Source of the DNA: Bacteroidota bacterium
GTDB lineage: Bacteria; Bacteroidota; Ignavibacteria; Ignavibacteriales; Ignavibacteriaceae
Length of the DNA: 53,736 bases
NCBI GenBank assembly: GCA_021777835.1
Contig: JAJYDC010000019.1
Coordinates: 1-53,736, forward strand
Direction: 5' to 3'
Shown here: positions 12,279-45,740 of the stretch, in pieces
Layout: each line of letters opens with the position of its first letter
Numbering within the stretch: the stretch's first letter is position 1
Position numbers and translations under genes: made by a program
The notes under the pieces: generated by a model
Database searches by the model: none
Seen by the model: only the letters and a program-made list of their open reading frames with translations
What the model was told of the DNA's origin: nothing

Positions 12279-12584
12279 TCAAATTGATTCCATCACCATA
12301 CGGGCAGATGTAACTTTACCAAGAAATTTAGCATGTACTTCAGCTTGAAGTCTTGGGGCTTCCTTTTCGGCGTAGGAAATATATTGATCTATTGATTCAC
12401 ATTCATAGTGACTGAAGTATGTCACTTCATTGCTTGAGTTTGTGGGGATCCGTACTTTGTAGAATTTATGATTGTTAAAATAACCTGTTCGAAGTATATC
12501 GGGGATATGTGATTCTTTCATCCATGAAAGCCACTCATCCTCAGCTTCTTTCTTTACAATTGAAGTGATACTATACACAAACAT
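12279..12584 (-). CDS. DUF4286 family protein
   Basis: A small cytosolic protein of 101 residues matching the DUF4286 pattern: N-terminal beta strand, then EWLSWMKESHIPDILRTGYF, a middle YFSHYECES, and a C-terminal APRLQAEVHAKF. The family has a ferredoxin-like (dimeric alpha-beta barrel) look and no established function. Full length. It lies 69 bases upstream of the M1 aminopeptidase in the same direction. No catalytic residues can be proposed from sequence. Confidence 0.8.
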   Translation of the reverse strand: MFVYSITSIVKKEAEDEWLSWMKESHIPDILRTGYFNNHKFYKVRIPTNSSNEVTYFSHYECESIDQYISYAEKEAPRLQAEVHAKFLGKVTSARMVMESI

Positions 12585-12869
12585 ATCTGCCTTTATATTT
12601 TAAGAAGTGAATTATTTATAAAAAGAAATCCGCTCTTACTTATTTATCACCTTGAATTATTATTTACATTACATAAATAATCTTGTATTTGCCGCCTTTA
12701 ACAAAATTTAAATTATCCTATTATTTCAAGAAGGCTTAATTCAGTAATAAAAAAATAATTGTTCTAATATTCCCGGCTAAACTTAATTTTTTTTCCTAAA
12801 ATATGCTAATGATAAATTTGAATAAAAAAATTTAAAAATGTTAGCAGCGCCACACCAAAAATATTTATC

Positions 12870-12900
12870 TTGTCGGATAATGTAAAATATTTTATCTTTA
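12870..12900 (+). promoter_or_regulatory. candidate promoter of the small RNA
   Basis: TTGT (12870-12873) and TATCTTTA (12893-12900) are 19 bases apart. This closely fits the TTTG-N19-TAnnTTTG layout used by Bacteroidetes-type primary sigma factors, and such a factor is encoded in this window. The predicted start of transcription, near 12905, is where the first stem of the candidate RNA begins. Confidence 0.5.
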
Positions 12901-12902
12901 CA

Positions 12903-12985
12903 ATGGTTCTGTTAAAAGGTTCTCCCCTGCCTTTTAACTTAAGGAACTAAAGTCCCATAGTCGCCCGATTATGGGGCTTTTTTTT
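12903..12985 (+). ncRNA. candidate small RNA of about 83 nt
   Basis: A compact two-hairpin element in a 412-base gene-free gap. Hairpin one has a perfect 9-bp stem, GTTAAAAGG (12911-12919) with CCTTTTAAC (12930-12938), around the C-rich loop TTCTCCCCTG, extended by GTTC/GAAC (12906-12909 with 12944-12947). Hairpin two is an intrinsic terminator. A promoter-like sequence lies just upstream. No reading frame of note is present. The loop could base-pair with purine-rich ribosome binding sites, as C-rich loops of known small RNAs do, but that is inference. It does not resemble 6S, SRP or tmRNA, and I know no family name for it. Confidence 0.5.
12951..12985 (+). terminator. intrinsic terminator
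   Basis: AGTCCCATA (12951-12959) pairs over nine positions (one G-T pair) with TATGGGGCT (12970-12978), followed by a run of eight T's on the plus strand. No plus-strand protein gene lies upstream, so it must end a non-coding transcript; this is the main evidence for the small RNA. On the minus strand no T-run follows. Confidence 0.75.
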
Positions 12986-12996
12986 ATTTAAATTGT

Positions 12997-14064
12997 TTAC
13001 CTTTTACTATTTCCCCTGCGATTATTTACTGAATCCTTTTTCAAATTCGGTCTCTCTATCTTAGCTTTCTCTTTTTTCACCGCAGGCTGCTTTTTGATTT
13101 CCACTTTAGGCTTATTTATTTTTTGAGTTACCTTACCGCGTATTACACTATTATTTCTCTTTGGAACGCTCTCCCTAACCTTATTACTGTTATCTATTGG
13201 TCTTTGGGGCTCCGTCTTTACATTGGTATCCCTTTGATTCCTTATAGGCGGATTTACCGGTCTTGCTGCAGGCGGAGACGTAACCGGTCTCGTAACTTGA
13301 GTCGGTGTAACTGGCCTTGTAACGGGTGGTGGAGTAGCCCTGTTGTCATTTCTAATTACTCCGGTATTTCTATTCTGATCCGTTCTTGAGTTTCCTTGTT
13401 CTTGCACTCTAGCACGAATTATTTGCCTGCTCCCGGCTGTAACTTTTTCATTTACTATATTTGCCTGTAAGATCCTTTGGTTTGTTGCGGTTTCTATTTC
13501 ACGAACATCAGGTGCACGCCCGCCTTCATTATTTCTAATATCCCTTATTCGACTATTGCTTTCATTTGTCCGATATTTCACTACATCAGAATTAGTGAAA
13601 TTTTTCTGCGGTACTACCACCCAATAATTAGTCTGATTTATGTAAACATTTGCTCTTGGATATCCCGGAGAAGGTTGTGGAGCCCAACCAATATATCCGT
13701 TTTGATTATACCATTCAACGTGTGCAGGCGCCCATTGATATGATGGTCTCCAAATCCATCCGTATTGAGGATCATTATCCCAATAACCATAATGATATAC
13801 TACCCATCCATACGGCTCGTATGAATCCCACATCCATCCGTTTGCTGTCCAAACCCAATGTCCGTCTGAATATGGCTGCCATTGAGGCGTAGCATATGGA
13901 CGCCAAACAGTGCCTAATTCCGGTACGTTCATCCATTGCCCGTATTCATCAAGTTGACTGAAGGTTTGACTGGGATTATTTTCACTTGTTGTATCCTGTA
14001 CAGTATAGCAGGCAGGTATAGTTAGTATCACAAAAGTTAAAAGAGCATAAATTATCTTTTTCAT
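12997..14064 (-). CDS. lipoprotein with aromatic DUF6600-like repeats and basic C-terminal tail
   Basis: A probable cell-surface or outer-membrane lipoprotein of 355 residues. The signal peptide ends in a lipobox IPAC (Cys19). Residues about 40-155 are very rich in Trp, Tyr and Pro in repeated units such as GTVWRPYATPQWQPYSDGHW and YGWIWRPSYQWAPAHVEWY, matching the DUF6600 pattern often seen in envelope proteins of Gram-negative bacteria. The rest is low-complexity and strongly basic (PPVTRPVTPTQVTRPV, then many Lys, Arg and Asn), perhaps binding nucleic acid, cell wall or surface polymer. Function not established. Its 3' end faces the terminator of the candidate small RNA, 11 bases away. Confidence 0.75.
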   Translation of the reverse strand: MKKIIYALLTFVILTIPACYTVQDTTSENNPSQTFSQLDEYGQWMNVPELGTVWRPYATPQWQPYSDGHWVWTANGWMWDSYEPYGWVVYHYGYWDNDPQYGWIWRPSYQWAPAHVEWYNQNGYIGWAPQPSPGYPRANVYINQTNYWVVVPQKNFTNSDVVKYRTNESNSRIRDIRNNEGGRAPDVREIETATNQRILQANIVNEKVTAGSRQIIRARVQEQGNSRTDQNRNTGVIRNDNRATPPPVTRPVTPTQVTRPVTSPPAARPVNPPIRNQRDTNVKTEPQRPIDNSNKVRESVPKRNNSVIRGKVTQKINKPKVEIKKQPAVKKEKAKIERPNLKKDSVNNRRGNSKR

Positions 14065-44708: not shown

Positions 44709-45227
44709 TTAAGATTCGAATAATTCTTTAATCGTCATTCCTCTTTTTGCAGACATTTTCTTTGCATCTATCAAATTTTTAAGTCCGTCAAGAGTAGCTT
44801 TAACTTGATTATGAGGATTGCTTGAGCCTAATGATTTTGTAAGAATATCTTGAACTCCGGCCGACTCAAGTACCGCACGAACACCACCACCCGCTATCAA
44901 ACCAGTTCCAGGAGAAGCTGGCTTTAATAATACTTTTCCGGCGCCGTACTTTCCAATTATTTCATGAGCTATTGTTCCCTTGATAACGTTTACAGTTACA
45001 AGATTCTTCTTCGCATCATCAATGCCTTTTGAAATTGCATCGGTAACTTCATTTGCTTTTCCTAATCCAATTCCAACAGTGCCCTTTCCGTTACCAACCA
45101 CAACAATTGCATTAAAACTAAACCTGCGGCCTCCCTTAACTACCTTGGCGACTCTGTTGATGTGAACGACTTTTTCTTTAAGTCCTTCAGACTCACCCGA
45201 TTTAACATTTTTTGATTGTTTTTCCAA
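44709..45227 (-). CDS. rpsE: 30S ribosomal protein S5
   Basis: Small-subunit protein at the mRNA entry site, important for decoding accuracy, 172 residues. Diagnostic phrases are [38 protein letters not shown] and [19 protein letters not shown]. Normally rpsE follows rplR within a few bases; here 147 bases containing a tRNA-Gln gene come between, and the leader from tRNA end to ATG is 59 bases. Confidence 0.97.
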
Positions 45228-45286
45228 GAACCACTCTCTTCTAATTAATTTTCAAAGTTTTTATAGACATATGAATTTTCTTTCTG

Positions 45287-45357
45287 CTGCCGGGAGAGGA
45301 TTCGAACCTCTGCAGACGCCTCCAAAGGGCGTAGTCCTACCATTAGACGACCCGGCA
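45287..45357 (-). tRNA. tRNA-Gln (anticodon UUG)
   Basis: The minus strand folds into a complete cloverleaf of 71 bases. Acceptor TGCCGGG pairs with CCCGGCA, D arm GTC...GAC, anticodon stem ACGCC/GGCGT with loop CTTTGGA (anticodon TTG, reads CAA), variable CTGC, and T arm AGAGG/CCTCT with TTCGAAT. The discriminator is G. CCA is not encoded. It lies inside the spc operon between rplR (17 bases) and rpsE (59 bases), in the same direction. Processing by RNase P and RNase E/Z would cut the ribosomal protein mRNA at this point. Confidence 0.95.
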
Positions 45358-45374: not shown

Positions 45375-45740
45375 CTAAAATTTTAAACCTCCCTCACGTG
45401 CGCCTTCTGCTATTGCCTGTATGCGTCCGTGGTATCTGTAACCATTTCTATCAAATACTACCGATGAAATATTTTTCTCTAAAGCTTTTTTAGCAACAAA
45501 TATTCCAACAAGTTTACTTTTTTGAACTTTTCCATTAGCAGTCTTCAATTCTTCCGTCAGTTCCTTAGATAATGAAGAAGCTGATGCAATTGTATTTCCG
45601 GTAGTATCATCTATAAGCTGAGCATAAACATTCTTCATGCTTCGGTATACTGATAAACGAGGTCTTTCCGGAGTACCGGTAATTTTTTTCCGGATCTTTG
45701 TCTTTGATCGAAGTCTTGAATTTTCGTTTCTACTTATCAT
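45375..45740 (-). CDS. rplR: 50S ribosomal protein L18
   Basis: 5S rRNA-binding protein, 121 residues. Recognised from [37 protein letters not shown] and the ending [20 protein letters not shown]. Full length. Followed by the embedded tRNA-Gln gene, which is the odd feature of its context. Confidence 0.96.

Follow-up and report, generated by a model that had tools for sequence, protein, structure and literature searches.

The question raised by this locus is whether a 412-base gap (12585-12996) in the window, meaning the whole stretch of 53,736 nucleotides analysed here, holds a small RNA gene of its own and how such an RNA would act. The gap is flanked by two minus-strand open reading frames (ORF), one of a DUF4286 protein on the left (12279-12584) and one of a DUF6600 lipoprotein-like protein on the right (12997-14064). 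That the gap contains a real and conserved small RNA gene of about 81 nt is nearly certain. The favored reading of that gene, with a probability of roughly 0.55, is a stand-alone RNA belonging to an uncatalogued family of siblings, placed under CRP-type control, acting in trans and free of Hfq through its C-rich loop, and originating from a DUF3098 leader. The features of the locus are given in Table 1.

Table 1. Predicted features of the small RNA locus, in window positions
Feature	Position	Strand	Remarks
CRP/FNR-type palindromic box TGTTAGCAGCGCCACA	12839-12854		centre about -58.5 from predicted RNA start
-35 hexamer TTGTCG	12870-12875	+	17-bp spacing to -10
-10 hexamer TATCTT	12893-12898	+	end 6 nt before outer stem
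Predicted small RNA, about 81 nt	12905-12985	+	start inferred from promoter, end from T run
Outer stem, 5' side	12905-12909	+	partner 12944-12948; fold and covariation
Inner stem, 5' side	12911-12919	+	partner 12930-12938; fold and covariation
Hairpin loop UUCUCCCCUG, 10 nt, nearly invariant	12920-12929	+	comparison of 138 copies
Inner stem, 3' side	12930-12938	+	fold and covariation
Outer stem, 3' side	12944-12948	+	fold and covariation
Intrinsic terminator	12949-12985	+	stem 12949-12962/12967-12980, loop GCCC 12963-12966, T run 12978-12985

The promoter-like string first described, TTGT at 12870 followed by 19 bases and by TATCTTTA at 12893-12900, was present in the sequence and was better read as TTGTCG-N17-TATCTT, which agrees with the sigma70 consensus at 8 of 12 positions; a simple scan missed it because its cut-off was 9 of 12. 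The perfect 9-bp stem closing the 10-nt loop was also as described, and an additional outer stem of 5 bp had been overlooked. The eight T's of the terminator stood, and its stem, given before as 9 bp, proved longer (14 pairs counted, 12949-12980).

Folding of positions 12902-12990 yielded -35.9 kcal/mol against a shuffled mean of -16.6 (z = -6.38), and none of 200 shuffles folded as well. Promoter-like sites (11 vs. 7.4 ± 3.1 expected) and terminator-like sites (2 vs. 1.7 ± 1.3 expected) were not in excess in this AT-rich region, and the promoter claim rests on the comparison between copies. The fold, a paralogue in the same genome, the relatives and the covariation were all beyond chance.

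A DNA search returned a second copy in the same genome (E = 1.1e-14, 80% identity over positions 46-134 of the 136-base query), and a covariance model found four clear copies there (contigs C90, C86, C51 and C12) plus weak or partial matches; two weak matches on contig C77 (L178 and L179) covered the terminator end only and are possibly decayed copies. All 13 genomes of the genus of the window matched the covariance model (E ≤ 0.001), and within the family matches at E ≤ 0.001 occurred in 73 of 80 genomes and 25 of 29 genera, with the best 53 candidates per genome scored. In the class sample, for which the best 10 candidates per genome were scored as in the other large model searches, a broader model matched 157 of 391 genomes (E ≤ 1e-4); the 40 family members among the matches listed all had E ≤ 1.9e-10, and some of the 157 matches were bare terminators or leaders in which the C-rich loop is missing. 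Since only the best candidates of each genome were scored, a missing match is no proof of absence. Of 395 phylum genomes from outside the class, 9 gave a weak match to model R1, and presence throughout the phylum was rejected, as the four matches inspected of those nine (L168, L172, L173 and L174) were bare terminators, matched on both strands. Contigs with a strict 20-base core numbered 62, of which 27 were labelled Ignavibacteri- (-um, -a, -ales, -aceae, -ota), 31 only Bacteroidetes bacterium and two BMS3Abin03; the remaining two (Martelella and Dialister) are presumably chance.

The 171 matched rows reduced to 160 distinct ones, of which, judged by eye, 11 were terminator-only or antisense and 11 had altered loops that still held at least CCC. 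The remaining 138 copies carry [CU]UCCCC and underlie all 138-copy counts. Judged from sequence and comparison, this is a previously uncatalogued multi-copy family of predicted small RNAs in Ignavibacteria and relatives, which are environmental bacteria.

Tandem arrays of two or three copies were observed in L241 (G047; spacing 160 bp), L252 (G018; 205), L260 (G057; about 315) and L366/L378 (G690; about 150), those of G018 and G057 having a metallophosphoesterase gene on one side and a GTP-type PEP carboxykinase gene on the other. Siblings with other C-rich loops (CUCCCCCAU, UAUCCCCCA, CCCCCCC and others) occurred at L203, L213, L234, L245, L216, L227, L208 and L262, some in genomes that also have standard copies, which would be compatible with specialisation. 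Two RNA copies in family f17 (L171 and L368) lie directly behind a tRNA gene (identified by eye for L368). Their loop is UUUCUCCCCUAA, their outer stem, GAGUUGAG...GAUGCUC, resembles that of f7, f9 and f64 copies, and they may be a distinct branch of the RNA family.

The compensatory stem changes that the initial annotation had asked to be sought among relatives were found. In an alignment of 33 copies (A1), 94.5% of the pair cells were standard, against at most 56.7% with the partners slid, and 51 cells were changed on both sides, against 19.8 in shuffles. Two measures showed no excess in A1: pairs changed on both sides numbered 8, a figure that 115 of 500 shuffles also attained, and further pair types 26, attained by 351 of 500. 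Rows in which the outer stem is shifted out of register may account for this. A second alignment (A4), of 49 diverse copies, was fitted to the model; there both sides had changed in 25 of 26 pairs, 224 cells were double-changed (66.4 in shuffles), and all five measures lay above all 500 shuffles. Cell counts are inflated by relatedness, and more weight falls on how many different pair types occur (as many as six at one position of A4).

The loop was identical in 110 of the 138 copies, a conservation that is due in part to their selection by [CU]UCCCC, and the pair closing it was G-C in 88, U-A in 30, U-G in 10 and G-U in 5. In the predicted folds, CUCCCC was unpaired (P > 0.8) in 137 of 138 copies, as an exposed loop of anti-Shine-Dalgarno type would be, and the inner stem and the terminator arm formed at P > 0.8 in 126 and 130 copies, several of the misses being another register of the loop. 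A loose promoter pattern (TTGnnn-N16..18-TAnnnT) preceded 60 of 67 copies linked to a DUF3098 gene and 46 of 71 stand-alone copies, with shuffled means of about 4 in each set. Spacing was 17 bp in 90 of the 106 copies with the pattern, the exact TTGACA-N17-TATATT occurred in 29 of the linked copies, and in 54 of 60 linked and 35 of 46 stand-alone copies with the pattern 6 nt separated the end of the promoter from the outer stem. The proposal of a stand-alone small RNA with its own promoter and terminator is supported by the fold, the fixed promoter spacing, the conservation and the covariation, and sequence comparison points to an independent transcription unit ending in a terminator.

A leader peptide or small ORF is a highly improbable reading of the same conservation. 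An ATG at 12903 opens MVLLKGSPLPFNLRN followed by a stop, so that a frame is open in the window copy, and in 88 of 138 copies the frame runs past the loop uninterrupted, which is what the sequence shared in stem and loop would produce. That ATG lies 2 nt upstream of the predicted RNA start, however, no more than 25 of 138 copies have an ATG in frame, with 20 of the 138 then staying open past the loop, and the stems change by compensatory pairs; the small ORF was rejected because its reading frame is not conserved among the 138 copies. There is equally little to be said for a functionless terminator or the remnant of a mobile repeat: several copies per genome, and the fact that the weak matches inspected outside the class are bare terminators, would agree with it, but covariation, syntenic maintenance and the fixed promoter spacing would not, and the strict core was found in no viral contig, which also gave no sign of a phage origin.

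The window locus, with DUF4286 on its left, was syntenic in 9 of 13 genomes of the genus, and its right neighbour belonged to a single cluster in 5 of those 9. Mean column identity was 0.83-1.0 over the RNA, 0.74 in the bin of the T run and 0.76 in the bin spanning the start, against 0.52-0.66 upstream beyond -10 and 0.35-0.54 downstream; conservation drops at both ends of the RNA. Of the 9 orthologues of the window copy, 8 have a CRP/FNR-type box centred between -57.5 and -59.5; in 14 copies at other loci of the genus its centre is at -68.5 to -69.5, one helical turn away. By a wider box pattern, which was picked after the conservation of the window locus had been seen and has no shuffle control, a CRP-like box preceded 22 of the 71 stand-alone copies, each of them from the genus of the window, and none of the 67 DUF3098-linked copies; the other 49 stand-alone copies had none by the same pattern. 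A narrower pattern, for which there is a shuffle control, occurred in 16 of 71 stand-alone copies (shuffled mean 0.2). Regulators of CRP type exceeded the cut-off in 12 of 13 genomes of the genus, which shows their presence only, since all 14 control genomes also matched the CRP domain.

A copy was counted as linked to DUF3098 (PF11297) when a same-strand profile match lay no more than about 500 nt away. By this definition 67 of 138 copies preceded a DUF3098 gene; L241 has three of them, two of which stand farther upstream in its tandem array. The window copy and 70 others had no DUF3098 match behind them. Three of these (L195, L196 and L212) adjoin what is normally the left-hand neighbour of the DUF3098 locus and may be truncated linked copies. 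Families f7, f9, f17, f20, f64 and f65 also have loop-bearing copies that no DUF3098 match follows. The start region of DUF3098 comes close after the T run in most of the linked copies. A terminated RNA directly before DUF3098 suggests that expression of the gene depends on read-through or begins farther upstream.

Roughly half of the copies are tied to DUF3098, which runs against the favored reading and is better explained by a role in cis. It is distinctly improbable, even so, that the RNA is a cis-acting leader or attenuator of DUF3098 throughout, the stand-alone copies being incidental duplicates. Besides the linkage, such a role agrees with four leaders, L369 and L371 (f2), L373 (f59) and L375 (f4), that have lost the CUCCCC loop and kept hairpin and terminator (from 24 loci, with six short ones, L358, L360, L361, L370, L377 and L381, left out); three of them (L369, L371 and L373) have a C-rich terminator loop. 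It also agrees with unbroken T runs of at least 6 being rarer in linked copies (14 of 66) than in stand-alone ones (43 of 71), a difference that is not independent of ancestry. Total T content nevertheless did not differ (p = 0.42), and leakier terminators before DUF3098 were rejected. The 71 copies without a DUF3098 match behind, and the window locus, which is syntenic and conserved, speak against the cis reading, as does the predicted folding of the stems, in which there was no sign of an alternative fold. For the window copy itself, a riboswitch or attenuator was rejected, as no same-strand ORF of at least 60 aa follows in the rest of the gap and a single fold dominates.

Under the favored reading the loop would find its partner in trans. 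Pairing of the C-rich loop with Shine-Dalgarno sequences, as proposed earlier, fits the exposed loop and gained no support from the target tests. In 454 kb of its own genome, with starts guessed from ORF, none of 338 genes had at least 7 contiguous complementary bases near the start (mean of 3.0 for 200 permuted loops), and 21 of 338 had at least 6 (permuted mean 14.0, reached by 42 of 200). Genus-wide, CAGGGGAG-ATG occurred 49 times against 36 for the reversed control and AGGGGAGA-ATG 91 times against 74, both barely above, and no target was common to different genomes among the 59 loci fetched, not all of which were matches. Ribosome-binding sites of GGGGA type were rejected as a mark of secreted proteins (3 of 11 vs. 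207 of 891, p = 0.72); signal-peptide-like genes were more frequent with ordinary AGGAG and GGAGG sites (p = 0.006 and p = 0.014). Hfq exceeded the cut-off in none of 31 genomes (one weak match, with stops, in G029), and among these genomes the RNA did not qualify as Hfq-dependent.

Since the target tests failed, the partner of the loop may be an mRNA, a protein or another RNA. One alternative is a decoy or scaffold, in which the invariant loop would be the binding site for a protein or for a non-coding RNA (ribosomal or other) and the many copies would titrate or recruit that partner in the manner of CsrB. A decoy would explain that the loop stays nearly constant across the class sample against changing stems, that the RNA is multi-copy and occurs in tandem arrays, and that the complementarity tests gave no signal of an mRNA target. 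Each RNA has a single such loop, however, and siblings within one genome (G085 and G024) have diverged in the loop flanks and kept the C run, which makes a decoy somewhat unlikely. Base-pairing in trans has about an even chance of being the mode of action.

The absence of a named family, as first noted, was upheld: a search of the whole window against Rfam 15 at the gathering threshold returned a tRNA only, with nothing reaching threshold at the small RNA, and the 20 loci with relatives gave tRNA and rRNA only. A tRNA-Gln gene is located at 45286-45357 on the minus strand, inside a ribosomal-protein cluster, between an rplR-like ORF (45375-45740) and an rpsE-like ORF (44709-45227; gene names by eye). 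The lowest E in a permissive Rfam search was that of RsaE/RoxS of Firmicutes (RF01820; 23.8 bits, E = 0.087, not significant; gathering score 79 bits), which is also a stand-alone small RNA with an exposed UCUCCC-type C-rich stretch and a terminator. The C-rich stretch of the RsaE model lies between hairpins, whereas here it is in a 10-nt hairpin loop under the outer stem; the RNA does not belong to RsaE/RoxS and homology is not supported.

The NmsRA and NmsRB RNAs of Neisseria are described as sibling, tandem small RNAs with UC-rich single-stranded anti-Shine-Dalgarno regions (PMC5362039); they share the sibling and tandem arrangement and the exposed C-rich region with the family found here, and differ, as far as that account goes, in having three stem-loops and known targets. 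The NmsRb model (RF02877) scored 22.3 bits against a gathering score of 52, which does not make the RNA a member.

The cuckoo RNAs, or CcsR, carry a C-rich loop motif. In the present family most copies have their own promoter pattern and terminator, the linked gene is DUF3098 and lies downstream, and the lineage is another; the window copy is flanked by DUF4286 and DUF6600, and other copies have DUF3098 as a neighbour, not DUF1127 (CIN1), so that the RNA is no cuckoo RNA. Those RNAs (CIN1 locus, alphaproteobacteria) are reported as processed from a transcript that includes a DUF1127 gene, and resemble the present family as multi-copy small RNAs physically linked to the gene of a small DUF protein (PMC10253847). 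A small DUF1127 gene of S. meliloti is described as having an attenuator leader in which premature termination occurs just upstream and a C-rich element matters (PMC12218461). The DUF3098-linked copies are alike in their predicted termination just upstream of a small DUF gene and in the C-rich element; the leader of S. meliloti, by the same account, requires a translated uORF, whereas here there is no conserved ORF and stand-alone copies exist. The likeness to RsaE/RoxS, NmsR and cuckoo RNAs is most likely one of kind, reached by convergence and not by descent. No work on small RNAs of Ignavibacteria was found in the literature, which for the broadest search was judged among the matches listed only; DUF3098 was found named in one paper.

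The locus is accordingly described by a predicted promoter, a two-part hairpin, a putatively single-stranded C-rich loop, a terminator, syntenic maintenance and covariation. According to the favored reading, RNA polymerase would start at about 12905 and stop at about 12985, and in the genus of the window a CRP/FNR-type regulator at the predicted box would set the timing of the synthesis of this copy. The RNA would then act in trans and without Hfq through its exposed C-rich loop, perhaps also through the C-rich terminator loop, and would most likely pair with G-rich mRNA stretches near ribosome-binding sites, altering translation. As the spread of the copies suggests, the family probably descends from the promoter-hairpin-terminator unit that immediately precedes the DUF3098 gene. 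More tentatively, and with considerable doubt, the RNA may be ancient and lineage-wide in these bacteria, in which no Hfq was found, its loop nearly frozen for a dedicated partner, and may work both in cis, as the DUF3098 leader, and in trans, as the CRP-controlled copies.

The family provides a concrete and alignable small RNA, with siblings, in a lineage that is known here mostly from metagenome assemblies and has no detectable Hfq. With both DUF3098-linked and stand-alone versions, it would be a natural case for studying how a terminated leader may turn into a set of trans-acting RNAs.
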